Below, piece after piece: positions 1,452 to 19,626 of a DNA stretch of 33,120 nt (within the stretch, counting starts at the first letter, position 1; each line of letters opens with the position of its first letter). Origin of the DNA: a virus; IMG/VR virus record IMGVR_UViG_3300050821_005256, positions 1 to 33,120 of that record, one strand, 5' to 3'. Below the pieces are notes generated by a model. It saw only the letters and a program-made list of their open reading frames with translations, was not told the DNA's origin and made no database searches. Both the position numbers and the translations under genes were made by a program.

Positions 1452-1452
1452 C

Positions 1453-2339: not shown

Positions 2340-2519
2340 ATGCCCTCCATCCAACTCCCCGCCAACGGCAAGTGCCCGAAGTGCGGTGCTCATATCACGC
2401 TCTCGCGGATCGAGCCGCACCCGGTCAAGCCAATCGCATACCACTACTACGATTGCGCCACGTGCGGGCCGGTGCTGGTTAAGGTGTACGACATCAGCGT
2501 TCGACAACCTGATCCCTAA
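2340..2519 (+). CDS. small zinc-ribbon protein
   Basis: A 59-residue frame three bases after the previous gene. It holds a CPKCG knuckle at residues 12-16 and a C-x-x-CG knuckle near 39-43 (CATCG), spaced as in a zinc ribbon, with a His/Tyr-rich linker. It probably folds around one zinc ion and may bind nucleic acid or protein. The last 26 bases overlap, tail to tail, the 3' end of the leftward gene at 2494-2853, so this is where rightward and leftward transcription meet. Confidence 0.55.
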   Translation: MPSIQLPANGKCPKCGAHITLSRIEPHPVKPIAYHYYDCATCGPVLVKVYDISVRQPDP

Positions 2520-2853
2520 CAGTCGGCGGTGCAAATTTAAGAACAGTGGGGTCCTGTTTGGGTGGATGCGTGGCCCGTAGCGTTTCTTGCGCTTCCGCAA
2601 AAATCACCTTCATCTTGGATTCGTACAGATCGACCTTGCGCAAGGCTGCGTCGCGCTGTCGTACCAGCTTTTCGACGTACTTGCGTAGATGTTCGTTTTC
2701 TTGTGACACCGCCTGGAATGCGGTTTTTAAAGAATCGTTTTCCGCTTCCAAGCTGTCGTTGCGCTCGTAAATTTGATCGACCTTAATCGTCAAGGCGCTG
2801 GCCATTTCTATGGCACCAGCGCGCTCGTCGCTTGAAATTTCCTCAATGCTCAT
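2494..2853 (-). CDS. coiled-coil protein, last gene of the leftward operon
   Basis: 119 residues. The start ATG (2851-2853) has GGAG six bases upstream, which favours it over an in-frame TTG two codons earlier. Residues about 20-95 are a continuous charged helix with heptad leucines (RNDSLEAENDSLKTAFQ, ENEHLRKYVEKLVRQ), so the protein is probably a dimeric coiled coil. The tail is proline-rich. It lies beyond a hairpin terminator for the upstream leftward genes, so it may have its own promoter or depend on readthrough. No specific function is recognised. Confidence 0.6.
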   Translation of the reverse strand: MSIEEISSDERAGAIEMASALTIKVDQIYERNDSLEAENDSLKTAFQAVSQENEHLRKYVEKLVRQRDAALRKVDLYESKMKVIFAEAQETLRATHPPKQDPTVLKFAPPTVRDQVVER

Positions 2854-2908
2854 TCTCAACTCCTTTGGTTTTCGATTTTACCGACAGTTCTCTTGACAGC
2901 AGGGGAAA

Positions 2909-2932
2909 GCCGCCCTCATTGCTGAGGGCGGC
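2909..2932 (-). terminator. intrinsic-type terminator for leftward genes
   Basis: A perfect 10-bp stem (GCCGCCCTCA with TGAGGGCGGC) around a 4-base loop. In the leftward direction the stem is followed by a short T run (TTTCCCC). It starts seven bases beyond the stop of the 48-residue gene at 2939-3085, where a terminator of the leftward small-gene operon would be expected. The T run is short, so it may be leaky and let RNA reach the coiled-coil gene beyond. Confidence 0.65.
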
Positions 2933-2938
2933 ACCACC

Positions 2939-3085
2939 CTACTTCTTTCCAATCGTTTTTGATGTCTCCAGCGAGCACATCGCGTTCGCCGCATTGCAGG
3001 CCGCTTGGGAGAACCGCAAGGCGTCCTCCGACTTATCAGCCTTTGCCGCCTTCGTAATCATTTCCTTCACTTCGGTGTCACTCAT
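2939..3085 (-). CDS. small helical protein
   Basis: A 48-residue frame, MSDTEVKEM at the start and TSKTIGKK at the end, rich in Ala, Lys and Glu and predicted to be mostly helix, with two Cys (QAACNAANAMC). A GGAG lies about 12 bases upstream. It ends just before the hairpin terminator, as expected of the last gene of a transcript. No function recognised. Confidence 0.5.
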   Translation of the reverse strand: MSDTEVKEMITKAAKADKSEDALRFSQAACNAANAMCSLETSKTIGKK

Positions 3086-3157
3086 CGGGTTCTAGCTCCG
3101 ATTTGAGAAAGCTAGCGGCTTAAGTCCGGGTCGCCAGCGGTCCCGGTTGTTTGGCCA

Positions 3158-3400
3158 TCAGCCGTCAAGTTCTTTCAGCCACTCCCGAACGTCGCGGGGT
3201 TCGACCCCGGAATCAACCGGGTCCTTCGTGGGTTGGGCTTCCCCACTCTCAACTTGATCGAAGGCCTTGTTGATTTCGGCGCATAGTTCCTCGGCAGTGC
3301 ATTCGTGGGCGCGCTCGCTGGGGAAGATATTAAAGTTGAGGCAACGCCGGTCAGGGTCGCCAAATAGGCGATCCATGAGGCGCGTCTGTTCCGGTCCCAT
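3158..3400 (-). CDS. hypothetical acidic protein
   Basis: 80 residues from an ATG preceded by GGAGATTGAA. The protein is acidic, with a basic aromatic N-terminal part (RLFGDPDRRCLNFNIFP) and a C-terminal helix ending WLKELDG. There are no membrane helices and no recognised domain. It belongs to the leftward early operon. Confidence 0.55.
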   Translation of the reverse strand: MGPEQTRLMDRLFGDPDRRCLNFNIFPSERAHECTAEELCAEINKAFDQVESGEAQPTKDPVDSGVEPRDVREWLKELDG

Positions 3401-3421
3401 TTCAATCTCCGTGTTAATCGC

Positions 3422-3637
3422 TTATGAGCGCCTGATTTTATCAGGTCCCTTGCGCGGGTGCGGGTCCTGCCGCAGTAGGCTCGGCCACGTTCCGTCGTCC
3501 TCCACAATGCTCGTCACCACGCGCCCCGACCCGCTGCAATGAGTGCAGCTCAGGTCTGGCGCGGTCATGCGGTCGTTAAAGCCCTTTCCGGTGCCGCCGC
3601 ACTTAGGACATACGCCATAGTGTGTCGTGCGCTTCAT
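3422..3637 (-). CDS. DnaJ-type zinc-finger protein
   Basis: 71 residues from the ATG at 3635-3637, which has GAGG seven bases upstream and overlaps the stop of the gene before it. It holds two CxxCxGxG repeats, CPKCGGTGKG near residues 8-17 and CTHCSGSGRV near 29-38, the pattern that binds zinc in the cysteine-rich domain of DnaJ. There is no J domain, so it is not a co-chaperone. Phage proteins with this finger probably use it for protein or nucleic-acid contacts. The 11382-11939 protein carries a related finger. Confidence 0.6.
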   Translation of the reverse strand: MKRTTHYGVCPKCGGTGKGFNDRMTAPDLSCTHCSGSGRVVTSIVEDDGTWPSLLRQDPHPRKGPDKIRRS

Positions 3638-3804
3638 TTGTTTGCCTCGCGGATTATTTGTTCCAGCGTGTCGTTGTTGTCTTTGGCCCAAGTATAGCCG
3701 ACCGCTACCATCGTTTGCATTCCCGCCCTAACGCCGCGCGGTAATAGTTTGTAGCCCCACCATATCATTAGGCATCCCATACGGAAGCGGATTAGGTGTA
3801 TCAC
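3634..3804 (-). CDS. small protein with a hydrophobic N-terminal segment
   Basis: 56 residues from a GTG (3802-3804) that overlaps the upstream stop (GTGA); its stop overlaps the next start (ATGA). These overlaps on both sides support the frame and the GTG start. The N-terminus is basic and hydrophobic (HLIRFRMGCLMIWWGYKLLP) and may insert in the membrane; the rest is polar and ends IIREANK. Function unknown. Confidence 0.55.
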   Translation of the reverse strand: MIHLIRFRMGCLMIWWGYKLLPRGVRAGMQTMVAVGYTWAKDNNDTLEQIIREANK

Positions 3805-4118
3805 TTTGGGTCCCGTGTTAACTGCTCAATAGTCTCCGCAAGCGCGGCTTCTGCCTCGTGGGCGCACTCAGTGGCGATCTTGGAAAGTCCATCCATGCCT
3901 TCGCCTTTAGCTGCGAATGCCAATAGCCCGAATGTCATGGCTGATCTGTCAAGCGCCTCCCTCAACGCCGCGATCACCTTCGCGTCGGATTCGCGTTTGG
4001 CTTCATATTCAGGGATGCAATCGACTGCCTCTTGCATCTGGGCAATTCGGGTGTCGCGTTCGGCAATTGCCTTCGCATCGGTTTCGATCTTTAGATTCAA
4101 TTCGGAATGTGTTTTCAT
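3801..4118 (-). CDS. coiled-coil protein
   Basis: 105 residues, ATG overlapping the upstream stop. The first half is a charged helix (LKIETDAKAIAERDTRIAQM) and the second contains an Ala-rich helical stretch ending ETIEQLTRDPK. Coiled-coil dimerisation is likely. It is coupled by overlaps to genes on both sides. No enzymatic motif is visible and no family is recognised. Confidence 0.55.
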   Translation of the reverse strand: MKTHSELNLKIETDAKAIAERDTRIAQMQEAVDCIPEYEAKRESDAKVIAALREALDRSAMTFGLLAFAAKGEGMDGLSKIATECAHEAEAALAETIEQLTRDPK

Positions 4119-4291
4119 TTCCCGACTATCTCGGCGTTACGCGGCTGTGACAGAACTTCGAGCAGGCTCACCAGGGCATCCTCAACCTCGACGGCCATAA
4201 CTTCAGCGCGCTCTACGTCATTGCGGTAGCGTCCTCGCCTAGCCTTGGTGAGCCTATCGAGAATATCCTTGAAGGTTACGCGCTGTGTCAT
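4115..4291 (-). CDS. small basic-acidic protein
   Basis: 58 residues from the ATG at 4289-4291, with GGAGAG upstream; in-frame codons further upstream lack a site this good. The N-terminal half is basic (TFKDILDRLTKARRGRYRND) and the C-terminal half acidic and helical (AEVMAVEVEDALVSLLEVL). The stop overlaps the next start. Function not recognised. Confidence 0.5.
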   Translation of the reverse strand: MTQRVTFKDILDRLTKARRGRYRNDVERAEVMAVEVEDALVSLLEVLSQPRNAEIVGK

Positions 4292-4293
4292 CG

Positions 4294-4557
4294 TTACTCT
4301 CCGGCCGCCTTGGCCCACTCGCGCAGCTTTGCTGCTGCGCGTTGGCCTTCGGCGCGATCTTCCTCCGTGTCGTTTCCAATTGGTTCCTCCATCGCCTTGG
4401 CGAGATTTTCCAATTTCTCAGCCTCGGTAAGATGCCGCCCGCGCCGGATTGCCGCACCTGCGGCAGCTAGAGCGGAGCGCGCCCACAGATAATCGCGCCA
4501 TGGCGTCTGATCCATCATGACCTCAACCAACCTTGCGTGCTTCTCGCGCTCGTCCAT
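4294..4557 (-). CDS. hypothetical helical protein
   Basis: 87 residues from the ATG at 4555-4557, followed two bases after its stop by the next gene. It is highly charged and Ala-rich (WARSALAAAGAAIRRGRHL, RAEGQRAAAKLREWAKAAG). The leader bases AGGCAACTCAA before the ATG are nearly the same as those before the IS-interrupted gene at 11343, hinting at a duplicated leader. No domain recognised. Confidence 0.5.
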   Translation of the reverse strand: MDEREKHARLVEVMMDQTPWRDYLWARSALAAAGAAIRRGRHLTEAEKLENLAKAMEEPIGNDTEEDRAEGQRAAAKLREWAKAAGE

Positions 4558-4580
4558 TTGAGTTGCCTGCTTGTGGAGGT

Positions 4581-4793
4581 TTAATCGCCTTTGCGAATGC
4601 GATCTTGGACTCCACGTAGGAGCGCCTCTACGGCACGTCCATCCAGCGGCGGCCGCGCTACATCTTTCCCCGTTAGGAGGGAATCGCACCAATTCGTCGG
4701 CACCAGTCTTGCACAGCGCTCTCGTTCGGCAGCAACCGCTATCTCAATGGCGCGTTTGCGGGAGGATGTCTTGGGTATCACGGATTTCTCCAT
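4581..4793 (-). CDS. hypothetical protein
   Basis: 70 residues from the ATG at 4791-4793. The frame stays open upstream to 4868, but that would overlap the conserved gene at 4813-5229, so the internal ATG is preferred. It contains an Ala/Glu/Arg helix (RAIEIAVAAERERCARLVP) and a C-terminal helix (AVEALLRGVQDRIRKGD). The AERERCA motif is common in small phage proteins that deal with nucleotides or replication, but no function can be given. Confidence 0.45.
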   Translation of the reverse strand: MEKSVIPKTSSRKRAIEIAVAAERERCARLVPTNWCDSLLTGKDVARPPLDGRAVEALLRGVQDRIRKGD

Positions 4794-4812
4794 GCTGTTG
4801 TGATGTTTGTGC

Positions 4813-5229
4813 CTAACCGTCTTCGCTTTGCCTAGAGACTTCACGATCAATACGCTCGATCTCGGCAACGATCAGCGCGCCAGCTTTAACGAGATCACGT
4901 CGACGATTTCCCCTCATGTGGCAATCTGCAATATCCCACGGCCAAATGGTGACGTTGGCATGATGCCCAGCTCGGCATTGCCCGCTGACGGCCCGGCGCC
5001 CAATGGCATAGGCCGCCGCAGCGTAAGCGAGATCACCTTGGCCGTGTATTTGGTCATCATGCGATGGCGACCAGCCTTTTATTTCGATCTGGCGCTTGCG
5101 CTCGGCGGCAATATCTTCGATTGCGGCGGCTAGGCATAACGATTTCTGAGCAGCCACGATGTCGAGCAGGCGTTTGATTTCCGCGCGCTGACCGCTGATC
5201 ACGTCTTGCTGGTGCTTTCGTAAAATCAT
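4813..5229 (-). CDS. conserved phage protein of unknown function
   Basis: 138 residues. The core has a pattern I recognise from many phage and prophage proteins: IAAERKRQIEIKGWSPSHDD near residues 40-59, then an Ala-rich helix (DLAYAAAAYAIG), a WPWD motif near 95, and the closing RRDLVKAGALIVAEIERIDR. The family is widespread in phages but has no established activity that I can state. The N-terminal 35 residues look like a coiled coil. It is the best-conserved member of this small-gene run. Confidence 0.65.
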   Translation of the reverse strand: MILRKHQQDVISGQRAEIKRLLDIVAAQKSLCLAAAIEDIAAERKRQIEIKGWSPSHDDQIHGQGDLAYAAAAYAIGRRAVSGQCRAGHHANVTIWPWDIADCHMRGNRRRDLVKAGALIVAEIERIDREVSRQSEDG

Positions 5230-5288
5230 GGCTGCTAACGTCCTGTTAACCGGCTTTTGCGCCTTCGATGACCAAGGCGCATGGTTGG

Positions 5289-5468
5289 TTAGAGTAAAAT
5301 TTCATTCCTGACGGGCTTAGGCAAAGGTGAAACTTTGCTTTCGGGATCGACCGCGTAGGCAATGAAGCCGTTGGGGCTGCGGTCAACAATACAAACGCCG
5401 TCACGAAAACATTTGACCACAGACGCGATGATTTCAGTTGGCGAAGCATGGTCGGCATTCCTTTCCAT
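5289..5468 (-). CDS. small conserved-looking protein
   Basis: 59 residues from the ATG at 5466-5468, three bases after the previous stop. The sequence (TEIIASVVKCFRDGVCIVDR, then a Pro-rich tail) has normal amino-acid balance and two Cys nine residues apart. A longer frame on the same strand (to 5620) exists in another register, but it overlaps the well-started gene at 5472-5648 and has odd composition, so this one is preferred. Function unknown. Confidence 0.45.
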   Translation of the reverse strand: MERNADHASPTEIIASVVKCFRDGVCIVDRSPNGFIAYAVDPESKVSPLPKPVRNEILL

Positions 5469-5471
5469 GGA

Positions 5472-5648
5472 CTATTTTTCCAGATGAGGTAGGGCCGCAA
5501 GCATCGTCCTCGCGGCGGCGATAGTTTGTTCAACCGTGAGATTGCTTCCAGCATCCTCGTCGCGGTCGCCATCCTCGCGAATAATGGCATCTGCCCAAGC
5601 CTTGAGGGCGGTCCAGGCATTTTCCTTACTCAGTTCTGGAACAATCAT
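5472..5648 (-). CDS. small acidic helical protein
   Basis: 58 residues, ATG at 5646-5648 with GGAGA upstream, overlapping the stop of the gene before it. It includes NAWTALKAWADAIIRE and VEQTIAAARTMLAALPHL, both amphipathic helices, with an acidic loop (EDGDRDEDAG). A longer upstream extension to 5732 is open but has poor composition and would overlap the 53-residue gene. No function recognised. Confidence 0.5.
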   Translation of the reverse strand: MIVPELSKENAWTALKAWADAIIREDGDRDEDAGSNLTVEQTIAAARTMLAALPHLEK

Positions 5649-5806
5649 TGGGGCTTCTCCTGCAACATCTGTTTTAGGACAGTGATGCGCGTCCGTAGCA
5701 GCACTATTTCGGCAATCGCATCTGTGGCGCATTTGGCGACGTAATAATGGCTGCGCTCCGTCGTCGCTTGTTTGCGAAGGTCGTCTAGCCGCTCCAAAAT
5801 ATCCAT
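5645..5806 (-). CDS. 53-residue helical protein
   Basis: Starts at the ATG 5804-5806 and ends in a TGA overlapping the next ATG. The sequence (MDILERLDDLRKQATTERSH, LLRTRITVLKQMLQEKP) is a charged amphipathic helix likely to form a coiled coil. The internal ribosome-binding site of the following gene lies in its last codons. No function recognised. Confidence 0.5.
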   Translation of the reverse strand: MDILERLDDLRKQATTERSHYYVAKCATDAIAEIVLLRTRITVLKQMLQEKPQ

Positions 5807-5818
5807 GCTAACCCCGTG

Positions 5819-6052
5819 TTAGCGTCTATTCGCTGCGGCTAAAAGCCGTTCGTACTCGGCGAGAGGAACAAGTTTGAACTTACGGTCACGTCCATAGTCC
5901 ACATTTGGATTGTGCTTGTTCCGAAACATTCCGTTACGATGCCAAACAGATCGCACGTAGGCTGGGTGGCACGAAACACGCTCTGATATTTCCTCGCTTG
6001 TTAGCGCCGGGCTAGTCTTGCAGAGCGCCAAAATTTGTTCAGCTTTACTCAC
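5819..6052 (-). CDS. small helix-turn-helix DNA-binding protein
   Basis: 77 residues from a GTG start at 6050-6052 with AGGAG five bases upstream, overlapping the 3' end of the HNH gene. Residues about 5-40 look like a winged or simple helix-turn-helix (ILALCKTSPALTSEEISERV followed by HPAYVRSVWHRNG, the recognition helix). The C-terminal part is basic (NVDYGRDRKFKLVP). A role in regulating early genes is plausible. The ATG further upstream lies inside the HNH gene and is less likely. Confidence 0.6.
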   Translation of the reverse strand: MSKAEQILALCKTSPALTSEEISERVSCHPAYVRSVWHRNGMFRNKHNPNVDYGRDRKFKLVPLAEYERLLAAANRR

Positions 6053-6458
6053 TGGCGCTCCTTGTCTGGCCGCAGGCCGCCCCGGCGGATTGCTGAGAGC
6101 CAAGTACTAAGTCCGTGGCGGGAGGTTGACCCGTTGTTCCACGGCCAGCAGTGAGCGGGGCCTGCCCGAGGCTCTCCCTGCGATAACGCATCATTTCCTT
6201 CTTGGCGTCGCCATTTTGCCCGTAGATTTTCCACCAGAATGGAAACTCGTGCATGAACCAAGCCCATTCGTCAGGCATCATGTTTGCCTTGAGCATGTTG
6301 CATAGGCGGCAAGCCCACACAGTCCGCTCGCCAAGGATGGCTCCGCGCGACTTGGGGACGACGTGATCCCTGGTTGCGGCGACGCGCGAGCTTGCTGTTA
6401 CGGACTCTAGTGTCCGCTTACAGTAGGCGCACCGCTCTCCCTTGCCGCGCTTGCTCAT
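6045..6458 (-). CDS. HNH endonuclease
   Basis: 137 residues from the ATG at 6456-6458, preceded by GGAAGGGA. The N-terminal half carries the HNH fold markers: CAYC at 10-13, RDHVVPKSRG near 30-39 (the Asp-His of the active site) and CRLCN near 50-54 with a following lysine, so two zinc-binding Cys pairs frame the catalytic residues. The C-terminal 60 residues are low-complexity. In phages such nucleases help DNA packaging or behave as free-standing homing enzymes. Here it sits far from the terminase, among small early genes, so homing or host DNA attack is more likely than packaging. Confidence 0.75.
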   Translation of the reverse strand: MSKRGKGERCAYCKRTLESVTASSRVAATRDHVVPKSRGAILGERTVWACRLCNMLKANMMPDEWAWFMHEFPFWWKIYGQNGDAKKEMMRYRRESLGQAPLTAGRGTTGQPPATDLVLGSQQSAGAACGQTRSASE

Positions 6459-6492
6459 GGTCCCTTCCGTGAAGTTGCCGACTAACGACGCA

Positions 6493-6672
6493 TCAATCTG
6501 CCGGCGAGAAAACAACAAGCCGTCCTTCTGGGTCGTTGTCGTACATCGATTGAACGTCCAGTTTTCGATAGTCCGCGCCGTCGAACAAACACTGGAAAGT
6601 GAGTTCGTCGGGAAGATTGCGCAGTACTGCTCGCAATTCTCCGATAGTTTCCACTGTGAATTTGAGGCCCAT
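6493..6672 (-). CDS. small acidic protein
   Basis: 59 residues from the ATG at 6670-6672, overlapping the previous stop (TGATG). It has a mixed alpha/beta look (KFTVETIGELRAVLRNLPDE, then GRLVVFSPAD). Small phage proteins of this pattern are common, but none has a known role that I can name. A GTG one codon earlier is also possible. Confidence 0.5.
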   Translation of the reverse strand: MGLKFTVETIGELRAVLRNLPDELTFQCLFDGADYRKLDVQSMYDNDPEGRLVVFSPAD

Positions 6673-6854
6673 CACGCCACCTTCTCGCTGCTCTTTTCCA
6701 TCCGCATCCGCTGCACGGTATGGGTGTTCTCCCGGCTGGCGCGGCTGTAGTCCATCGTTATCTTAGTCCAGCGGGACCGGACTCCCTGGTCCCGGTCGTC
6801 GCCTCCGCTTTCGCGTGGCTCAGTTGGGAGATTCGCTGCCGCTGGATTCGCCAT
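6672..6854 (-). CDS. small hydrophilic protein
   Basis: 60 residues from the ATG at 6852-6854, joined to the previous stop in TGATG. It is rich in Arg, Ser, Glu and Asn with no hydrophobic core, so it may be disordered. The start lies in a 17-base sequence repeated at 7110-7126. Evidence is mostly the tight coupling on both sides. Confidence 0.4.
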   Translation of the reverse strand: MANPAAANLPTEPRESGGDDRDQGVRSRWTKITMDYSRASRENTHTVQRMRMEKSSEKVA

Positions 6855-7096
6855 CAGGTGAGCCGCCACGCATCAAACCTTTCCAGAGCAGTTCTATCCT
6901 CTGATAGAGCCCGTTTGGCGATTTGCTCAGCCCACGGAATATCATTGATTATTTCTCGGAGCGCTGACCGGAGTCGCACCGTTTCATCACGTAATCCGAG
7001 AATCAGATTATGTAGGTGATCCGGTCCAACATAAGCGTTCAAAATCACATTTGCGATTTCCACGATGTCGGGTGCCGGGGCATCATTGTGGCTCAT
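6854..7096 (-). CDS. hypothetical helical protein
   Basis: 80 residues from an ATG with GGAG upstream, overlapping the stop of the preceding gene. It begins MSHNDAPAPD and is mainly helical (DIVEIANVILNAYVGPDHLH, LRSALREIINDIPWAEQIAK). No catalytic motif and no membrane segment. Probably a small early phage protein that binds another protein. Confidence 0.55.
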   Translation of the reverse strand: MSHNDAPAPDIVEIANVILNAYVGPDHLHNLILGLRDETVRLRSALREIINDIPWAEQIAKRALSEDRTALERFDAWRLT

Positions 7097-7230
7097 TTCA
7101 TTTCTCCATCCATCAGGTGAGCCGCCGCACAGTCCGGCGTCACCGCAGGACCACTCTCACCGATCAGGGTTGGCGCTGCCATTGACGCGCCCTGGAGGTA
7201 GAGAGCTTTAAAAACGGCGGCTCGCCTCAT
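7093..7230 (-). CDS. 45-residue protein
   Basis: Start ATG at 7228-7230 and stop at 7093-7095, each overlapping the neighbouring gene in ATGA. The sequence has a basic start (MRRAAVFKALYLQGASMAAP) and an Ala-rich end. The coupling on both sides is the main support. Function unknown. Confidence 0.4.
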   Translation of the reverse strand: MRRAAVFKALYLQGASMAAPTLIGESGPAVTPDCAAAHLMDGEMK

Positions 7231-7373
7231 GGTATCCAATCCCTGTGCAATCGGTATTGGCGATCAAGTTTTCGCAACTGCCGAGCCTTCAAGTGCAACC
7301 TGATTGACGCGATGCAGGCCGCAGTACCGAGCAAGCCGACGGCAATTGCCAGATATATGGCGAAGTCTTTCAT
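7227..7373 (-). CDS. 48-residue single-pass membrane protein
   Basis: Begins MKDFAIYLAIAVGLLGTAAC, one membrane helix at residues 4-24, followed by a strongly basic tail (RLHLKARQLRKLDRQYRLHR), so the tail should face the cytoplasm. Start and stop overlap both neighbours in ATGA. Small basic membrane proteins in early phage operons often act on host functions, but nothing specific can be claimed. Confidence 0.5.
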   Translation of the reverse strand: MKDFAIYLAIAVGLLGTAACIASIRLHLKARQLRKLDRQYRLHRDWIP

Positions 7374-7573
7374 TGCGATTGCCCAATGTGTTGCTCATAC
7401 CCCGCCATAAACGCCTCATGGTCCGCAGCCGTCCTAAACTTCATGCCTTCCAGCCATTGCCAAGCGCGATAGGCGAGGACTTGCAGTTCACCGGGCCATT
7501 GCGGGCAGGCGGCATCGGCCCATTTCCGAAATGACGGGGCGTCGGTCGGGATTTTGTCGGGGGTGAGGTTCAC
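7370..7573 (-). CDS. hypothetical protein
   Basis: 67 residues from a GTG (7571-7573) that follows the XRE gene stop in TAGTG. It is Trp- and Pro-rich (FRKWADAACPQWPGELQ, YRAWQWLEGMKF). Longer in-frame starts would run far into the XRE gene, so the coupled GTG is preferred. Family not recognised. Confidence 0.5.
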   Translation of the reverse strand: MNLTPDKIPTDAPSFRKWADAACPQWPGELQVLAYRAWQWLEGMKFRTAADHEAFMAGYEQHIGQSQ

Positions 7574-7770
7574 TACAACACCTTGATTTGGTCGAATGTG
7601 ATCTTGCCCGCGACAAGCTGGGCAAGCTGATCGGCTACGTCCTGCGGCACCGGCCGCTCGCCAAGCGCCCATCGCCGGGACGTGCGCTCATTCACCTTGA
7701 AAAGTCGCGCCACGCCTCGCTGCGAGAGTTTGAGGCGGCTTAGCGTGGCGCGGAATTTGGTGGAGGTCAT
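7573..7770 (-). CDS. XRE/Cro-type transcriptional regulator
   Basis: 65 residues: a single helix-turn-helix domain of the lambda Cro/repressor type. Helices 2-3 are LSQRGVARLFKVNERTSRRW, residues about 14-33, followed by GERPVPQDVADQLAQL. It is the second gene of a leftward transcription unit whose promoter region, about 260 bases upstream of its start, contains two palindromes. It is therefore a natural candidate for the protein that binds them and regulates its own operon. Start ATG at 7768-7770 shares a base with the previous stop (TAATG). Fold call good; target inferred. Confidence 0.7.
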   Translation of the reverse strand: MTSTKFRATLSRLKLSQRGVARLFKVNERTSRRWALGERPVPQDVADQLAQLVAGKITFDQIKVL

Positions 7771-7985
7771 TAGGCGCTCATTTCCTCTTTCGCAGCCTGC
7801 TTCGCCAGCCACCCCGTCGCGTCGTTCGAGATTTCGTAACTCGGCCGTTGGCAGGCCAGAAACCAAGCATCGCGCCATTGGTAGCGATTGTTGAGAGGGT
7901 GATTTGGCCGGCAGGCGTGCAGAGCATTGAGCATCTGCGGATTGTTGGTTAGGCTACAAATCCGGTCCAGGGTCCAAGCGGTCAT
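7770..7985 (-). CDS. hypothetical protein, first gene after the regulated promoter
   Basis: 71 residues from the ATG at 7983-7985 with GGAGAG upstream; an in-frame ATG four codons earlier lacks a good site. The sequence (MTAWTLDRICSLTNNPQMLN, YQWRDAWFLACQRPSY) is rich in Trp, Asn and Arg. The stop shares a base with the XRE regulator start. It may act with that regulator. No domain recognised. Confidence 0.5.
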   Translation of the reverse strand: MTAWTLDRICSLTNNPQMLNALHACRPNHPLNNRYQWRDAWFLACQRPSYEISNDATGWLAKQAAKEEMSA

Positions 7986-8025
7986 CGGTCTCTCCATCCG
8001 GGCCTAAGTGCCCTTGAATGACCCC

Positions 8026-8053
8026 AAGATATACGGCCCTAGGGCCATGTCAA
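8026..8053 (-). promoter_or_regulatory. sigma70-like promoter of the leftward operon
   Basis: On the minus strand a perfect -35 box TTGACA (8048-8053) is followed after 16 bases by TATCTT (8026-8031), a fair -10. The predicted RNA start is about 35 bases before the first gene at 7985. The spacer contains one palindrome and a second lies just upstream of the -35 box, so the promoter is almost certainly controlled by a repressor. Confidence 0.65.
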
Positions 8054-8066
8054 GTGCCCTAGGGCA
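8035..8066. promoter_or_regulatory. paired operator palindromes
   Basis: Two perfect 12-bp palindromes, GGCCCTAGGGCC (8035-8046) and TGCCCTAGGGCA (8055-8066), share the core GCCCTAGGGC. Their centres are 20 bp apart, about two helical turns, so two bound dimers would lie on the same face. One fills the promoter spacer, the other abuts the -35 box. Half-sites related to the core recur at 8006-8014 (AAGTGCCCT, as at 8052-8060) and 8075-8080 (GGGCAC). The likely binder is the XRE protein at 7573-7770. Confidence 0.65.
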
Positions 8067-8098
8067 TTTATTTTCGGGCACATAACCTCAGTCAGTGC

Positions 8099-8377
8099 CT
8101 AAATGTCGCCGCCGCACGGACACCCAGCCATGGTGCAAGTGTCGCCGAAGAAAAACGGCTTCTTGCAGTGCGAGCATGGGTTGCCGCTGCGAGGATGATT
8201 GTCCATCAGGTCGCGGATCGCAGCTGCCTCAGTCGCGCCATGCCCAGCCGCCATGCGGCCATCGTCGTCCGGCTCGTCATCGTCATAGACGGCTTGCCAA
8301 TCGAACATGCGAACGGGGATCGGCGGATAGACGTTATCCGTTCTGATTTTGGGCTGTTTCTGTTCGGTCACGATCAT
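8099..8377 (-). CDS. hypothetical protein with a Cys-rich C-terminus
   Basis: 92 residues from an ATG with TAGGAG close upstream. The middle has an acidic stretch (DDDEPDDDGR), then ATEAAAIRDLMDN, a helix seen at the end of many small phage proteins, and finally a Cys cluster (CSHCKKPFFFGDTC, then CPCGG) that could bind zinc. It is transcribed leftward, upstream of the regulated promoter. Its own original promoter has probably been cut off by the IS element. Confidence 0.55.
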   Translation of the reverse strand: MIVTEQKQPKIRTDNVYPPIPVRMFDWQAVYDDDEPDDDGRMAAGHGATEAAAIRDLMDNHPRSGNPCSHCKKPFFFGDTCTMAGCPCGGDI

Positions 8378-8557
8378 GCTCCTACGTCAGATTTGGTCGT
8401 AGCAACTGGCGACATTGCAGAAGTTAGCCGCCAACTTCGGCGAACATGCCGTCGTCATCCCATCCCCGTGAAGTTAGCGAGGGTTCCGCTGCCGCGCAGG
8501 TCACCCACAACCCCCGGCCAGCGTCCGCCCGCTGGCGAGCCTACTCCCACTTCCTCA
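8378..8557. other. left flank of the IS element, remnant sequence
   Basis: No firm gene. On the minus strand a 33-codon open stretch (8556 down to 8455) runs out of the IS boundary and reads EEVGVGSPAGGRWPGVV then GDLRGSGTLANF before its stop. It may be the 3' end of a gene cut by the insertion. A 23-codon frame (8458 to 8387) overlaps its stop. Neither joins in frame to the fragment on the other side of the element, which suggests loss of some DNA. Confidence 0.35.
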
Positions 8558-11996: not shown

Positions 11997-12656
11997 TCAG
12001 AAAGGAATCTCTGTTTCGCCGGTTGCTGTCCTTACCGTGTCCAGCCCAAAGCCGTCCGTTGCCGGCGGTGGATTACGTTCGTCGTGATGAACCGCTGCGG
12101 CTTTAGGTGGTGCAGCTGCGTGTTCGTCAAATGCAGGAACCCGAGATCGCGGCACCCACCCTTTGAGCGTGAACAGCGGCTCGTAATTCACACCGTATGC
12201 GCCATTGATCGGCTTGACGCCTTCGCACACAAAAATAGGCACGGCACCAGGATTAGCTGCCACAGCAGCTTCGTAGTCGGCATACATTCGCAACATGGCG
12301 GTGATGACGTTGCCGGCGGTACTCGATAGTTCACGCAAACCGAGTTTCTGAGTCGTGCGCGGAATAATACCGTTGCCGTACACCATGACCTCGAAACCGC
12401 GCTTGAACTTGCGCGGGTCCTTTGGCTTTGGAGCCACCTGAGTTGGCGACGGGTCCCATATTTTCTCGGGGCCGGACCCTTCCGCGTAGAACAGCCAGCC
12501 GGTGCGGATGTTGGCCATGTCGAAGGCGAGTACCGGATTGACGATTTCGATCTCGCCGTCCACGCCGTCGGCGCGGGCGTAGAACCGGCCGGCTTTGGCA
12601 TTGTATTTCAGGAACGGCGTAAAATCCGCGTCGCCGACCGACAGATTAAGAGGCAT
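11997..12656 (-). CDS. probable phage single-stranded-DNA-binding protein
   Basis: 219 residues. The first 170 form a beta-rich domain (VGDADFTPFLKYNAKAGRFY, ANIRTGWLFYAEG, FKRGFEVMVYGNG, YGVNYEPLFTLKGWV) that recurs in phages of alphaproteobacteria. A proline- and alanine-rich linker follows, and the protein ends TGETEIPF. That end closely matches the acidic-hydrophobic tip of bacterial SSB proteins (DDIPF), which recruits replication and repair enzymes. I infer a phage ssDNA-binding protein with an OB-type domain. Position beside replication genes agrees. The tip is seen directly; the fold is inference. Confidence 0.6.
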   Translation of the reverse strand: MPLNLSVGDADFTPFLKYNAKAGRFYARADGVDGEIEIVNPVLAFDMANIRTGWLFYAEGSGPEKIWDPSPTQVAPKPKDPRKFKRGFEVMVYGNGIIPRTTQKLGLRELSSTAGNVITAMLRMYADYEAAVAANPGAVPIFVCEGVKPINGAYGVNYEPLFTLKGWVPRSRVPAFDEHAAAPPKAAAVHHDERNPPPATDGFGLDTVRTATGETEIPF

Positions 12657-12902: not shown

Positions 12903-13076
12903 CTAGCCATAGACACCCGCCTCCCCGTGGTCCGCAGCCCATTCCTCGTCGGTCAATTGCGATTCGACGTAGCATGTCGCCACGATAGCGGCCGCGTGCA
13001 GCCGGGCCGCGCGCAGGTCCAAGCCCTCGTCAATCAGCCGAGCGATGGTATCGAGCATGAATTGTTCGCGGGTCAT
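12903..13076 (-). CDS. small helical early protein
   Basis: 57 residues from the ATG at 13074-13076, which overlaps the stop of the leader gene (ATGA); an ATG three codons earlier is also in frame. The sequence (MTREQFMLDTIARLIDEGLD, ESQLTDEEWAADHGEAG) is helical and acidic. Function unknown. Confidence 0.5.
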   Translation of the reverse strand: MTREQFMLDTIARLIDEGLDLRAARLHAAAIVATCYVESQLTDEEWAADHGEAGVYG

Positions 13077-13180
13077 AAGTCCCATGGCAATCTCGTCTGT
13101 TGCCGCCAGATGATCACGACCGCAGCTATCAACAAGCCGAGGAAGATCAGGGCGAGGAATGGTGAACCTTCGGTGTACAT
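13073..13180 (-). CDS. 35-residue membrane peptide, first gene of the leftward early operon
   Basis: Starts at 13178-13180 with MYTEGSPFLALIFLGLL and has one membrane helix (residues about 7-26) with a basic tail (WRQQTRLPWDL). Its stop overlaps the next start. It is the first frame after the leftward promoter of the divergent switch. The predicted RNA start falls almost on its ATG, so it may be translated from a leaderless message. A short membrane peptide as the first early gene is unusual; role unknown. Confidence 0.45.
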   Translation of the reverse strand: MYTEGSPFLALIFLGLLIAAVVIIWRQQTRLPWDL

Positions 13181-13186: not shown

Positions 13187-13255
13187 ATCATGCACACGGC
13201 ATTACGCGGCTGTCAAGAATTATTCTTGACGCATACGATGCAATGTGCATATTAG
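13187..13255. promoter_or_regulatory. divergent promoter-operator switch
   Basis: A 19-bp palindrome at 13212-13230 (GTCAAGAAT, central T, ATTCTTGAC) has a -35 box in each arm. Leftward: TTGACA (13211-13216) with CATGAT (13187-13192), spacer 18. Rightward: TTGACG (13226-13231) with TATTAG (13250-13255), spacer 18. A protein bound at the palindrome would block both. Outer half-sites ATGCACA (13190-13196) and TGTGCAT (13244-13250) overlap or touch the -10 boxes. The XRE gene starts at 13260, so it is the likely binder. Confidence 0.7.
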
Positions 13256-13259
13256 GCGC

Positions 13260-13460
13260 ATGATTTCACGAACGGTTGCCAATACGCGCAAGCGACTCGG
13301 CGAAAGCCAGGCCGAATTTGCCAAACATTTCGGCGTCAATCAAAGCACGATCCAGCGGTGGGAAAACGCCAAGTACGAGATTCCGCCGCGGACAGCCAAG
13401 CTGATCGAGATTGTAATTTACCAGCTCGGATTGTCGTTTGCCAAACGGAGCCGGCAATGA
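13260..13460 (+). CDS. XRE-family repressor (CI/Cro-like)
   Basis: 66 residues: a compact helix-turn-helix domain with ESQAEFAKHFGVNQSTIQRW near residues 15-34, the canonical XRE pattern with Gln at the start of the recognition helix. No cleavage or oligomerisation domain follows, so it is Cro-sized. It sits directly beside the divergent switch and probably regulates itself and the leftward genes. Predicted transcription starts within two bases of its ATG, so the message may be leaderless, as for lambda cI. The stop overlaps the GcrA-like gene start. Confidence 0.75.
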   Translation: MISRTVANTRKRLGESQAEFAKHFGVNQSTIQRWENAKYEIPPRTAKLIEIVIYQLGLSFAKRSRQ

Positions 13461-13999
13461 CTTACTACGGCAACGGTAAATCCGATTGGCCAACTGAAAT
13501 GGTCGAGCATCTCAAAATCTGCCACGCCAAGGGCATGACCGATTTTGAACTTACGCAGGATAGAGTTTTCAGGGGGTTTTCCCGCAACGCCATCATCGGG
13601 CGCCGGAACAGGCTTGGCCTGAAAGCTAACCGGCCAACCACGCCAGAAGCCATCCGCCGCTCAAAACTGAATCCTCACCAGCGCCGCAATAAGCAGCCGA
13701 AAACCAAAGTACAGCTTTTCGACGGCTGGAAAGCACCCCGCCAATCGCCTTCCAAGCCTCGTACAGCGGGCTTTGCCGGCCCGGTGGTATTGCCGCCCAC
13801 GGAGCCGGGCGAGCTGCCGACGGTCTTTCCGCCGCTGCCGCTGGTGCCGATCGGCATTGCCGAGCTCGAGGACGCCAGCTGCAGATGGCCGACCCACGGC
13901 ACCGGGGCCACGATGCTGTACTGCGGTGCGACAAAAACCGATGACAAGCTGTCGTTTTGCCGGTTTCATTGCCGGTTGGCATATAGGCCACGGGCATGA
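13457..13999 (+). CDS. gcrA: GcrA-like cell-cycle regulator
   Basis: 180 residues. GcrA is an alphaproteobacterial protein that binds sigma70 RNA polymerase and favours promoters methylated by CcrM. The N-terminal DNA-binding part begins near W11 (DWPTEMVEHLKICHAKGMTD) and includes the hallmark FSRNAIIGRRNRLGLKA. The C-terminal sigma-binding module shows CRWPTHG and, after a gap, FCRFHCRLAY, the conserved Cys/His set. The middle is basic and proline-rich. The ATG overlaps the XRE stop. A phage copy could redirect host transcription or tie phage genes to host methylation state. The family assignment is strong; the role is inference. Confidence 0.8.
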   Translation: MTYYGNGKSDWPTEMVEHLKICHAKGMTDFELTQDRVFRGFSRNAIIGRRNRLGLKANRPTTPEAIRRSKLNPHQRRNKQPKTKVQLFDGWKAPRQSPSKPRTAGFAGPVVLPPTEPGELPTVFPPLPLVPIGIAELEDASCRWPTHGTGATMLYCGATKTDDKLSFCRFHCRLAYRPRA

Positions 14000-14847: not shown

Positions 14848-15372
14848 ATGATCAAGCTCAAACGCCAATCCCCGGAAGTCTATTTCGTGGCCAATCCGAT
14901 CAGCGGCATCGGCTCGGCGGAAATCAAATTCCTCAAAGGTGCCGCCCATCGCTCGTTGCGGCAACGCTGCCGCATCTGCCTGCACGCGGACGAGCAGGCT
15001 TTGCTGCACGAGACCGTGCTGGTCTACACCCGCGACACGTTCAATCGGCCGAACCGGCATCCGATGGCGGAATCCTTCCATGTGCTGGAAGGCGCGTGCG
15101 ATGTGATTTTCTTCACCGAGGACGGCAAGCCGGACAAGATCATGCACATGGAAGCCGCGGTGCGCGGCAACGGCCACCCGTTCATCGTACAGTTTCCGGT
15201 GATGGTCTATCACACCATCATCGTGCGCAGCGATTGGCTGGTCATCCACGAGACCTGCCGCGGGCCGTTCGTGCGCGGGGCAACCACGCTGTATGCGCCG
15301 TGGGCACCCTTGGAAACCGATGTGGCCGATGTGGCGGATTTTCTGGCGAAGCTGGAAACGTACTGCAAATAA
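14848..15372 (+). CDS. WbuC-type cupin-fold protein
   Basis: 174 residues with a single cupin beta-barrel. Signatures are RPNRHPMAESFHVLEGACDV near 68-87, the first metal-binding motif with His residues, and later VYHTIIVRSDWLVIHETCRG near 120-142, closing with LYAPWAPLE. This matches the WbuC family, small metalloproteins found in O-antigen gene clusters whose exact reaction is unsettled. It starts right after the previous stop and stands with a dehydrogenase and a sugar-type C-methyltransferase, so a part in making a modified surface sugar is the best guess. Confidence 0.7.
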   Translation: MIKLKRQSPEVYFVANPISGIGSAEIKFLKGAAHRSLRQRCRICLHADEQALLHETVLVYTRDTFNRPNRHPMAESFHVLEGACDVIFFTEDGKPDKIMHMEAAVRGNGHPFIVQFPVMVYHTIIVRSDWLVIHETCRGPFVRGATTLYAPWAPLETDVADVADFLAKLETYCK

Positions 15373-15383
15373 GGAAAATCACA

Positions 15384-15515
15384 ATGGTTTTTGGACACCA
15401 CATACGTGGTGGATCACTATCGCCAGCACAGCAATGGTTGGCATTTTTAACCGGGGTCGGGATTGGCGCTGTTATTTTGGGCGCCGGCTTGGCACTCATT
15501 TGGTATTTCGATTGA
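15384..15515 (+). CDS. 43-residue single-pass membrane protein
   Basis: Starts after AAGGAAAATCACA, a fair ribosome-binding site. A polar N-terminus (MVFGHHIRGGSLSPAQQWL) is followed by one glycine-rich membrane helix (GVGIGAVILGAGLALIWYF, residues about 24-42). Its stop overlaps the dehydrogenase start. It could anchor an enzyme of the cassette at the membrane; this is speculation. Confidence 0.5.
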   Translation: MVFGHHIRGGSLSPAQQWLAFLTGVGIGAVILGAGLALIWYFD

Positions 15516-16171
15516 TGACCCGCTCCCTCATCATCGGCGCCACTGGCGGCATTGGCCGCGTGGTCTGTGCCACACTGGCCGCGCGCGGCGACAGCATCGT
15601 GCCAATGGGCCGCGAGCGTACCGGGCAGGCTTATCCACAGGATGTGGATTATGTGGTGTTCCTGCAGCGCAATCGCGAATCCGAAAACGCCTGGATGCAT
15701 GAGTTCAACATCAGCCTGGATTTGACCAAGCGCATTGTGGAACTGATGGCACCGCGCTTCACCGGGGCGGACAAGGCCATCGTGATTGTCACTTCCGTCA
15801 ATGCCCGGCTAGTCAACAACCGGCTGCCGATCGGCTACCACATGGCCAAAGCCGCGCTTGAGCAGATGGCGCGCTATTGGGCCGTGGAGCTCGGGCCGCG
15901 CGGCATCCGCGTCAACTGCGTGGCGCCGGGCACAGTTCACAAGGGCGGGCCGGATTGGCCCAACAAGGATTTTCATGCGCGGATCACGCCGCTGCGGCGC
16001 ATGGGCTATGCGGACGAGGTTGCCAGCGTCATCGCGTTCCTGGCCTCGCCGGCTGCATCGTTCGTGACCGGGCAGACAATCACAGTCGACGGCGGCGTGT
16101 CGCTGCAATGGCAGGAGAGCTTGGCTAATTCACTGTTGCCGATGGAGGGCCTTTCAACGCAGCCGGGATAG
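15515..16171 (+). CDS. short-chain dehydrogenase/reductase
   Basis: 218 residues. The NAD(P)-binding glycine motif GATGGIG lies at 8-14, the catalytic Ser is near 94 (VIVTSVNA), and the active-site pair is Tyr108 and Lys112 (YHMAK). NCVAPGTV and the closing TGQTITVDGG complete the classical SDR pattern, so the enzyme should be active. The start ATG overlaps the previous stop; the open frame extends further upstream but inside the preceding genes. Flanked by a WbuC-like cupin and a C-methyltransferase, it may oxidise or reduce a sugar nucleotide. A lipid substrate is possible too. Confidence 0.8.
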   Translation: MTRSLIIGATGGIGRVVCATLAARGDSIVPMGRERTGQAYPQDVDYVVFLQRNRESENAWMHEFNISLDLTKRIVELMAPRFTGADKAIVIVTSVNARLVNNRLPIGYHMAKAALEQMARYWAVELGPRGIRVNCVAPGTVHKGGPDWPNKDFHARITPLRRMGYADEVASVIAFLASPAASFVTGQTITVDGGVSLQWQESLANSLLPMEGLSTQPG

Positions 16172-16195
16172 CAACGGGCGTGCAGCTGCAACAAG

Positions 16196-16245
16196 GTGCG
16201 GTTTCTGCCTTCATCGGCCCATGGTGGGTACGGGTGAAACCGCAC
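16196..16245 (+). promoter_or_regulatory. hairpin leader before the methyltransferase gene
   Basis: A perfect 10-bp inverted repeat, GTGCGGTTTC (16196-16205) and GAAACCGCAC (16236-16245), encloses 30 bases that can fold further (CCCA at 16218-16221 with TGGG at 16225-16228). It ends 24 bases before the start codon. It may protect the message, regulate translation or attenuate transcription within the operon. Confidence 0.5.
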
Positions 16246-16269
16246 AAGCTATCGAAAGGATTTTCCCGA

Positions 16270-17514
16270 ATGACCTACCACCGCCGCACCACATGCCGCC
16301 TGTGTGATTCCACACAACTGACACTGGCGCTGCACTATCCGCCGCAGCCGCTGGCGGACGAATATCTACGGCAGCCCAAGCCACAGCCGAGTTATCCACT
16401 GGATTTATATTTGTGCGATGATTGCGGCTGCGGGCAGTTGCTGGATGTGGTGTCAGCGGACGAGATTTATCCTTCCTACACCTACGAGACCGGCTCAAGT
16501 GCGGCATTGGTGGAGCATTTCCGGCAGTATGCGATGGACTTAGATGAGCGGCTAAAGCCGCGACTTGGTTCGTTGATTGTCGATATCGGCAGTAATGACG
16601 GGACATTCCTGCAGTATTTTCCACATTTAAAGCGAATGGGAGTTGATCCAGCACCGGTTGGACCTGAATTTTCGGAAGCCGGCTTTGCGACGTGGGACGT
16701 ATTTTTTACGCCAGCGGTGGCTGATAAAATCCGCCACAATCACGGCCCGGCCAGCATCGTCACAGCCAACAACGTCTACGCCAACATCGACGACCTGCGC
16801 ACATTTACCGAGGCCGTGCGCAACCTGCTGGCGCCGGATGGCGTGTTCGTGTTCGAGACTTTCTACCTGGCCGACCTGGTCGACCACATGGTATTCGATT
16901 TCATCTACCACGAGCATCTGACCGCGTTCGCATTGTCGCCGCTGATCGGCTTCTTCCAGCGGCTGGGCATGCAGGTGTTCGACGTGCAGCGCGTGGCGAC
17001 CAAGGGCGGCAGCATTCGCGTTTATGTGCAGCATGATGCCGGCAAACGGCCGGTGAGCTCGGACGTGGCGGCACTGGTGGAGTGGGAGTATTTGCGCGGG
17101 TTCGGTAACAAGCTGATTTTTCATAACTACGCAGAAAAAATCAGCAATACTTTGATTGGGCTGCGTAATGTACTGCACGATGCCAACTGCGATCTTCAAT
17201 CGATAGTCGGCTACGGGGCTTCGCCTACCAGCACCACGCTGATTTATGCAGGCAAAATAGGCATGTTCATCGAATATTTGGTCGACGATTGGGATGGCAA
17301 GATTGGCACGTATTCACCGGGACTGCACTTGCCGGTACGGGCTGCAGCCGAGCTCAACGCGGATTACTGCATCATCCTGGCCTGGCGCTATGCCGAGCAG
17401 ATCATGGCCCGCAATCCGCAATACCGCGGGACGTGGGTGGTGCCGCTGCCGGAGCTGCGGGTGATCAACGCTGCAACAGAACAATCGCCAACATCAGCAG
17501 CGCAACCACGATAA
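16270..17514 (+). CDS. sugar C-methyltransferase (TylC3/NovU-type)
   Basis: 414 residues, the normal length of the family. An N-terminal zinc site (C9-x-x-C12 in CRLCDS and C49-x-x-C52 in LCDDCGCGQL) is followed by a Rossmann methyltransferase domain with motif VDIGSNDGTF at 104-113 and FYLADLVDHMVFDFIYHEHL, and a C-terminal domain (SIVGYGASPTSTTLI, ADYCIILAWRY). This three-part layout is that of enzymes that put a methyl on carbon 3 of deoxysugar nucleotides, using S-adenosylmethionine. The ATG at 16270 has AAGGA upstream. Stretches near 16500-16740 and 17090-17280 are more A+T-rich than the rest. Confidence 0.8.
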   Translation: MTYHRRTTCRLCDSTQLTLALHYPPQPLADEYLRQPKPQPSYPLDLYLCDDCGCGQLLDVVSADEIYPSYTYETGSSAALVEHFRQYAMDLDERLKPRLGSLIVDIGSNDGTFLQYFPHLKRMGVDPAPVGPEFSEAGFATWDVFFTPAVADKIRHNHGPASIVTANNVYANIDDLRTFTEAVRNLLAPDGVFVFETFYLADLVDHMVFDFIYHEHLTAFALSPLIGFFQRLGMQVFDVQRVATKGGSIRVYVQHDAGKRPVSSDVAALVEWEYLRGFGNKLIFHNYAEKISNTLIGLRNVLHDANCDLQSIVGYGASPTSTTLIYAGKIGMFIEYLVDDWDGKIGTYSPGLHLPVRAAAELNADYCIILAWRYAEQIMARNPQYRGTWVVPLPELRVINAATEQSPTSAAQPR

Positions 17515-17598: not shown

Positions 17599-17817
17599 TT
17601 AGAGCCGTGGAAAGTGCATTTCGTTGATGCCACCTCCCGCCAACAGCGTGAGCGCGCCGATCAAAACAAGTATGAACGCAATAGCCCAGATGGCCTTCTC
17701 GATCGGCGCCGGGATGGCCATGAACAGCTTGACTACATAAAGTGCGATCCAGATCACGCCGAGTAAGACAATAATCGATATGACGAGCCAGAGTATAGCT
17801 ATGGCAAGCGAGATCAT
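17599..17817 (-). CDS. two-helix membrane protein
   Basis: 72 residues with two long hydrophobic segments (residues 3-33, containing ILWLVISIIVLLGVIWIALY, and 40-61), joined by a short polar loop (MAIPAPIEK). GGATAGG precedes the ATG. The size and topology resemble holin-like proteins, but it is far from the endolysin-type gene; it may instead be an envelope protein made by the prophage. Confidence 0.55.
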   Translation of the reverse strand: MISLAIAILWLVISIIVLLGVIWIALYVVKLFMAIPAPIEKAIWAIAFILVLIGALTLLAGGGINEMHFPRL

Positions 17818-17820
17818 GGC

Positions 17821-18258
17821 CTATCCAGTGCTCGCAACGAGTGAATCCAGCGGCGTGAGATTGCCCGACTGTTGCGCGGCGACCACCGGCTTGCCAGCCT
17901 CTGCGGACTTCTTCTCGGCCAGCTGCGCGGCTTCCAGCGCTGTCTTGTGATCGGCCTTGAGCGTGTCCATCTCGGACTTCTGCCGCGCGGTGACGATCTC
18001 GAGCTCGGCTTTCTGCTCGGCCTGCAGCTTGGCAACCGGCTTGAGCTTGGGTTTGTTGTGGTCGGCAATGACCGCCTCGCGCATGGCCTTGCCGGCCTTC
18101 TCGTCGGTGCGTTCCAGCGCGGCGGCGTGTGCCAGCGCCTGGTCGACCGGATCGGCCGAACCGCGGCCGGTCTCGATAATGCCGCCGGTAATCGGGTGGC
18201 GCCAGGCGTCGGATCCGAACACGTTGAGCTCGGCGCCGGTCAGTTTGTTGTGTTCCAT
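17821..18258 (-). CDS. coiled-coil protein
   Basis: 145 residues from the ATG at 18256-18258, with AGGAG eight bases upstream. After a small N-terminal part (LTGAELNVFGSDAWRHPITG), residues 40-125 form a highly charged helix (LQAEQKAELEIVTARQKSEM, LKADHKTALEAAQLAEKKSA) that should be a long coiled coil. It heads a three-gene leftward set with two membrane proteins and may connect to them. No family recognised. Confidence 0.6.
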   Translation of the reverse strand: MEHNKLTGAELNVFGSDAWRHPITGGIIETGRGSADPVDQALAHAAALERTDEKAGKAMREAVIADHNKPKLKPVAKLQAEQKAELEIVTARQKSEMDTLKADHKTALEAAQLAEKKSAEAGKPVVAAQQSGNLTPLDSLVASTG

Positions 18259-18334
18259 CGGATAAACTCCTGCCACACACAATGCGGGGCTGCGTATCAA
18301 CGCGCGGTTGGGTTTTAGGTTCCGCAATAGGAAC

Positions 18335-18364
18335 GGGCCGGGAAGGTTGGCGCCCTCCCGGCCC
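18335..18364 (-). terminator. GC-rich hairpin after the 18406-18702 gene
   Basis: Perfect 9-bp stem GGGCCGGGA (18335-18343) and TCCCGGCCC (18356-18364) with a 12-base loop. It stands between two leftward genes. In the leftward direction it is followed by GTTCCTATT, only partly T-rich, so termination may be weak. Confidence 0.45.
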
Positions 18365-18405
18365 TAGCCACCATGTCCAGCATCCACGCCGGATTCGTAT
18401 CAGCT

Positions 18406-18702
18406 TCAAATCGCCGCATACCTCGGCACAAAGCAGTCCGTCAGATCGCCTGTCTCACGATCAATGTGACGGCGAATGCCAAACACGTCGTGCGCAAAGT
18501 TATAGTCGTCTGTGGCGAGCAGGCCGGCGAGATCGAGCGGACATGAATTGTGCGTTGCGCACAGGTCCATATGCCACGTCATCAGGTCGCGTCTGCCGAA
18601 CCGGGTGCCAGCGCCATGCTCAAGCGCAACAGCACGATCGGCAATCTGTTCGATCAGCGCCAGCTGTTCGCCAGTCACGCTGAAATTCGGATGTTTTGTC
18701 AT
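18406..18702 (-). CDS. small conserved prophage protein (DUF6874-like)
   Basis: 98 residues. The pattern QLALIEQIADRAVALEHG, then CPLDLAGLLATDDYNFAHDV and FGIRRHIDRETGDLTDCFVP, with conserved His, Cys, Arg and Pro, matches as far as I can judge the DUF6874 family of phage and alphaproteobacterial proteins, which has no known activity. It has its own promoter (18752-18779) and a good ribosome-binding site. Single-gene control with an operator-like palindrome suggests expression separate from the main operons. Confidence 0.6.
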   Translation of the reverse strand: MTKHPNFSVTGEQLALIEQIADRAVALEHGAGTRFGRRDLMTWHMDLCATHNSCPLDLAGLLATDDYNFAHDVFGIRRHIDRETGDLTDCFVPRYAAI

Positions 18703-18751
18703 GTCACCTGTCCTTCGCTGTATCGGTCAATGCCATATCGACCGTGGCTGC

Positions 18752-18779
18752 ATTATGCACAGTGCATTGGTGATGTCAA
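18752..18779 (-). promoter_or_regulatory. strong sigma70-like promoter with operator
   Basis: On the minus strand TTGACA (18774-18779) is followed after 16 bases by CATAAT (18752-18757), five of six to consensus. A palindrome ATGCAC-A-GTGCAT (18755-18767) overlaps the -10 box. The same half-site ATGCACA occurs at the divergent switch near 13.2 kb, so the two may share a regulator. It drives the gene at 18406-18702. Confidence 0.65.
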
Positions 18780-19412: not shown

Positions 19413-19626
19413 TGGTATTTATCTCATTTATGGATCATTACGCATAACAACGGTTGCAGCCGCAACTAATTGGAACAACACATGAACTGAATATGGTTGC
19501 AACCGGAACAAATAATGCGTATGCTATTGATATGGCTGCACAATATGCCAATTCACGGCAAAATGTTCCATAATACATCTTATGCGAATTGCGTGTAAGC
19601 CATTGATATCGCTACACCTGGCGCGG

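Follow-up and report, generated by a model that had tools for sequence, protein, structure and literature searches.

Candidate ATGC-N5-GCAT operators connect a Cro-like regulator with back-to-back early promoters in a virus contig without an adjacent cI gene

The small XRE-family protein encoded at 13260–13460 is probably, at a rough probability of 0.8 judged from the sequence, a Cro-type autorepressor that acts on three promoters, PL, PR and P3, through an operator belonging to each, in an early region with no cI gene next to it. The candidate operators share the form ATGC-N5-GCAT, and their identification corrects the intuitive assumption that the operator of such a region is its most conspicuous palindrome. 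The DNA analysed, referred to here as the window, comprises positions 1–33,120 of IMG/VR record IMGVR_UViG_3300050821_005256, a linear virus contig fragment of 33,120 bp whose rightward genes include those for terminase, head-tail adaptor, head and tail proteins. The features on which the argument depends are as follows.

13073–13180, minus strand: gene for a predicted membrane peptide of 35 aa, first gene of PL, predicted leaderless
13187–13192, minus strand: PL -10 box, CATGAT, 6 nt before the ATG at 13180
13190–13202, minus strand: candidate operator OL, ATGCCGTGTGCAT read with PL, overlapping the PL -10 box
13211–13216, minus strand: PL -35 box, TTGACA
13212–13230, no strand: 19-bp palindrome, GTCAAGAAT-T-ATTCTTGAC, mostly two back-to-back -35 boxes
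13221–13235, plus strand: possible weak operator, TATTC-N5-GCATA, over the PR -35 box (tentative)
13226–13231, plus strand: PR -35 box, TTGACG
13238–13250, plus strand: candidate operator OR, ATGCAATGTGCAT, overlapping the PR -10 box, at -21 from the XRE start
13248–13253, plus strand: PR -10 box, CATATT, 6 nt before the ATG at 13260
13260–13460, plus strand: gene for the XRE (HTH_3) Cro-like regulator, 66 aa, the only HTH_3 gene in the whole record
13457–13999, plus strand: gene for a GcrA-family protein (Pfam GcrA, 3.3e-18), sharing 4 bases with the 3' end of the XRE gene
18406–18702, minus strand: first gene behind P3, phrog_12453
18752–18779, minus strand: P3, TTGACA-N16-CATAAT (11/12), reading into the leftward operon from 18702 to 17599
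18755–18767, minus strand: candidate operator O3, ATGCACTGTGCAT read with P3

The original prediction had called the XRE gene at 13260–13460 and a GcrA gene paired with it, both correctly, and its divergent early promoters with a common -35 region are likewise supported by the sequence. It had placed a -10-like box 18 bases from each -35 box, which holds leftward, where the spacer is 18 nt, and fails rightward, where it is 16 nt. Seven bases past each -10 box lies the A of an ATG, at 13180 leftward and at 13260 rightward. A leaderless start is therefore predicted on both sides, as had been proposed earlier for the same two codons, and transcription from PL and from PR probably begins at the A itself. 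Such starts are plausible because both messages of the divergent cI/cro regulators of phage PY54, whose cro -10 box is CATAAT, are leaderless (PMC4488713), and because 171 leaderless starts have been mapped in Sinorhizobium meliloti (PMC3616915).

Exact copies of ATGC-N5-GCAT number three in the 33 kb, at 13190–13202, 13238–13250 and 18755–18767, the first two of which form an imperfect inverted repeat flanking the palindrome. The motif alone is not rare, with 1.4 copies expected per shuffled window, and the case for operators rests on where the sites lie. Each lies 6–8 bases 3' of a TTGAC hexamer and extends into the -10 box of that promoter, its GCAT joining the -10 box in one register at all three promoters. 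Only three of the 64 TTGACs in the window have ATGC-N4..6-GCAT 6–10 bases downstream, and these are the same three sites. P3 is the best sigma70-like promoter of its region, and control of it by XRE, suggested by its one site, may be proposed on that ground. A candidate operator occurs inside the XRE gene's own promoter and again at other promoters, as far as sequence can tell. The motif was first spotted by eye in the window, and an unbiased enumeration together with data from other phages then served as the test.

The XRE protein carries a Pfam HTH_3 domain (4.8e-9) and matches the 434 repressor by sequence at E 0.0026. Its predicted structure (mean pLDDT 79) places the helices in 434-like order, consistent with an HTH_3 domain of 434/P22-type fold, and a Foldseek search listed 434 and P22 c2, with no match below E 0.001. 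Relatives of the protein were found in L007, L002 (record G007), L009 (G005), L010 and L028 (G010), the XRE of G007 being 50% identical to that of the window. When every 4-N(0-12)-4 palindrome upstream of XRE was enumerated, no motif but ATGC-N5-GCAT was present twice in the window as well as in G007, and each has one of its copies at -21 relative to the start of XRE; 1.9% of tiles contain some motif in two copies. G007 contains four copies in two promoter clusters, and a matrix built from G007 only places OR first in the window, the weak site at 13221–13235 second and O3 third; a larger matrix ranks the weak site 25. The more distant XREs of L009 and L028 go with GTCA-N5-TGAC instead, which in G010 occurs twice upstream of XRE and twice elsewhere, far from the XRE gene. 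Q28, Q29 and Q33 are DNA-contact positions of the 434 repressor. The residues aligned to them are Q, S and R in the window and L002 and R, T and G in L028, and at the last of these recognition-helix positions L009 and L028 have N or G instead of R. In L007, TTGC-N7-GCAA occurs twice around the -35 pair. Wider searches were less productive: tblastn searches of named phages with XRE and GcrA found no close match, matches in plasmids were distant, a genome_contigs scan gave weak partial matches only, and the GcrA search yielded no relatives. A search with the protein encoded at 11997–12656 led to L005 and L006, with no matching early switch in the stretches read.

The association with XRE genes extends to phages selected without reference to any protein. 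The pattern TTGAC-N7..9-ATGC-N5-GCAT-NNT-N5..7-ATG, run over IMG/VR without protein sequence (such searches may omit near-identical records), yielded 91 stretches comprising 80 loci. In 31 of the 81 matches, the ATG predicted to be leaderless starts an XRE-family ORF, against 36 XRE hits among all 2858 ORFs of these loci; the 31 are not independent events, many of the loci being mutually related and one being the L002 record itself. The other 50 of 81 matches have no XRE by the ORF test (e.g. L057, with no clear XRE). A further perfect site reading GCATTGAC lies exactly 12 bases before the TTGAC in 26 of 30 XRE loci, and another lies 34 bases before it in 15 of the 30. These sites, which played no part in the selection of loci, make up a lambda-like array. 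A matrix built from them ranks O3, OR and OL first, second and fourth in the window. In most of the 30 loci a CI-like gene lies leftward (HTH-like N termini, judged by eye), and in such CI-bearing phages CI may be the main reader of the sites, with Cro sharing them. Five example operator sequences were absent from the open-access full texts searched, a weak test of novelty.

The closest relative of the window is L101, in which TM72, the 72-aa membrane protein of the leftward operon behind P3, is 80.6% identical over 67 aa, a 318-aa protein is 43.6% identical, and DNA identity spans 13245–13366. L101 retains OL nearly letter for letter as well as the PR stretch from GCATATT to the ATG, and has an OR-like ATGC-N4-GCAT in the same place and back-to-back TTGACs with an 11-bp gap; where the window has its palindrome, L101 has ATGT-GATCC-GCAT, a near-operator over the -35 box. 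Short membrane peptides follow the same operator promoter in L101, where the peptide is leftward, and in L075. A second search, with ATGC-N5-GCAT-N6..9-GTCAA-N3..14-TTGAC, returned 84 stretches, and among the loci examined an XRE gene adjoins the pattern only in L101, the L084 group and the window. The palindrome is not kept in L101 or the L084 group, both with operators on either side; therefore, conservation extends to the operators on the flanks and to the -35 pair, and not to the symmetric 19-bp sequence. Back-to-back -35 boxes occur elsewhere with gaps of 8 (L007), 3 (L009), 11 (L010 and L101) and 5 bp (L084 group). The idea that the pair is peculiar to the window was rejected, since the pair recurs, although the symmetric 9-bp gap does not.

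The palindrome itself was the centre of the original prediction, in which one XRE dimer bound at 13212–13230 occupies the two -35 boxes and silences transcription in both directions. Its position, its perfect 9-bp arms around a 1-bp centre, and its TTGACA leftward and TTGACG rightward were all confirmed, and the adjacent XRE protein, named there as the likely regulator, is supported in that role by the sequence. Under a second-order model, a 33-kb window should contain about 0.5 perfect 9-bp arms with a loop no longer than 1, and the 79-bp intergenic stretch therefore about 0.001. The palindrome is also central, its centre at 13221 falling close to the middle-operator position of the other phages' array, a position that it occupies in the window, and the GTCA-N5-TGAC sites of G010 and G005, with their more distant XREs, overlap -35 boxes. 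Its half-sites, however, are spaced as GTCA-N11-TGAC rather than at the N5 of the operators, and an independent matrix ranks it 1101 in the window in the operator register. No further copy with up to three mismatches occurs in the window, and thus none at P3, and its loss in L101 and the L084 group leaves the operators on both sides in place. With candidate sites provided instead one per promoter, and with ATGC-N5-GCAT as the candidate that recurs across phages, a single XRE dimer on the palindrome seems highly improbable. The single exact copy found elsewhere in IMG/VR, on the 126-kb contig L004, is at about chance level and has no XRE noticed adjoining; an operator of this form common to phages was rejected.

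Two further explanations were considered. CTTGAC, present twice, accounts for six of the nine bases of each arm and is the sigma70 -35 consensus in S. meliloti (PMC2873474). Given both copies, the three inner base pairs beyond CTTGAC would match by chance with a probability of about 0.017, and this symmetry could point to a second host or phage factor layered on the XRE operators; such a factor is highly improbable, with the palindrome in single copy and not kept in relatives, no candidate protein, and one HTH_3 gene in the record. Alternatively, ATGC-NN-TGTGCAT could belong to a promoter consensus specific to the phage or the host and located around the -10 box, with XRE binding somewhere else, as the nearly fixed register of the three window sites with their -35 and -10 boxes might imply. 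Yet other phages have the same site at -12 and -34 as well, beyond the -35/-10 spacer, and ATGC-N5-GCAT is palindromic and associated with XRE genes and not with promoters at large, which makes a promoter consensus a highly improbable account as well.

Under the preferred reading, in which XRE represses PL, PR and P3 through ATGC-N5-GCAT, PL would drive the leftward early operon that begins with the small membrane peptide, PR the XRE gene itself and then gcrA, and P3 the leftward operon from 18702. XRE, presumably dimeric, would bind the 13-bp sites between the -35 and -10 boxes, overlapping the latter; as it accumulated, polymerase would be blocked at the -10 box of each promoter through that promoter's own operator, with autoregulation through OR. 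The palindrome would be where the -35 boxes of PL and PR meet, and not the repressor's site. Because these boxes lie 9 bp apart, two polymerases are unlikely to be accommodated there together, and PL and PR may exclude each other. In E. coli bidirectional promoters, polymerases exclude each other when one side is strongly activated (PMC12825309).

Much of this arrangement resembles that of lambda, with a small Cro-like first gene in the rightward early operon, palindromic operators overlapping promoters, and promoters placed back to back. The design had been described as more compact than lambda PR/PRM, which is marginally so: the -35 gap is 9 bp here against 12 bp, and the -10 boxes span 67 bp, compared with 70 bp. 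Between the start codons the distance is 79 bp, and 100 bp in lambda. The window is about as compact as lambda at its promoters, and differs in what is controlled. Like lambda, the related phages carry a CI-like gene leftward, and their ATGC-N5-GCAT sites, up to three in number, are spaced about 22–24 bp apart. In contrast, the window has a different operator sequence from lambda, no cI-like gene divergent from cro, and one consensus operator per promoter rather than two or three at 22–24 bp spacing at PR, the single PR site lying 48 bp from the single PL site. The leftward promoter that faces XRE drives the 35-aa membrane peptide, not a repressor. With no cI gene between PL and PR, no second HTH_3 gene and no tyrosine integrase match in a PF00589 search of the record, absences that apply to this linear fragment and not to a complete phage, the region looks like a lambda-type early region without cI in which PL and PR abut. 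The likeness to PY54 lies in divergent genes with leaderless messages, the latter only predicted here. The Cro protein of PY54 binds a single 16-bp site and is believed not to act as an autorepressor, unlike the window XRE, with its candidate site in its own promoter. Divergent promoters on common DNA at which polymerases can compete are also found among E. coli bidirectional promoters and at pLS20 Pc/Pr (PMC12825309, PMC4207663), where promoter elements overlap or coincide; the window promoters adjoin at their -35 ends. The TgrL regulator of Caulobacter phage phiCbK and the Rtr/Cdx XRE regulators offer a further parallel, that of an XRE repressor carried by a phage in alphaproteobacteria (PMC10688885); TgrL differs in acting on many host promoters.

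A cI-like gene is flanked by operator-bearing promoters in G007 and L075, and, as a hypothesis, loss of that gene would join PL and PR as in the window. The CI-less arrangement occurs in three phage types: the window, L101 and the L084 group. More tentatively, these could form a distinct class of CI-less phage early regions, probably alphaproteobacterial, with back-to-back PL/PR, one small ATGC-N5-GCAT autorepressor governing a third operon as well as the two leaderless early messages, and CI/Cro antagonism replaced by exclusion between polymerases at the common -35 region; this generalization is rather doubtful. The three types raise the testable question of how a phage uses Cro without CI. 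Additionally, ATGC-N5-GCAT is a specific candidate operator that predicts regulator genes in dozens of uncultivated phages from DNA alone, and the related XREs, which differ in half-site (ATGC or GTCA, both at N5) and correspondingly in the recognition helix, offer a direct test of an operator code.

Several other features of the record were observed. An alphaproteobacterial host is suggested because the phage carries GcrA. The window contains 57 copies of GANTC, the site methylated by CcrM, where base composition alone would predict about 123, despite the GcrA-family gene, and no such CcrM/GcrA sites fall in the PL/PR region or P3, the nearest being inside the XRE gene. Within 1–8500, long open frames are scarce and family matches few, an HNH endonuclease at 6045–6518 among them, and one-stop-codon readthrough of this stretch yields no clear gene set. 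A short-chain dehydrogenase and a C-methyltransferase (Methyltransf_13/14) at 15293–17514, between the early and packaging genes, look like cargo. The leftward operon behind P3, at 17599–18779, is set in an otherwise rightward arm. Finally, a direct repeat of about 20 bp, GTAnnCnnTTGATATnGCTnCA, occurs three times, near 19521, 19597 and 19764, in a 470-bp intergenic stretch before the gene for the terminase small subunit; the same stretch holds a near-operator, TATGCGAATTGCGTG, at 19581–19595, and the repeats possibly mark a late-gene control region.
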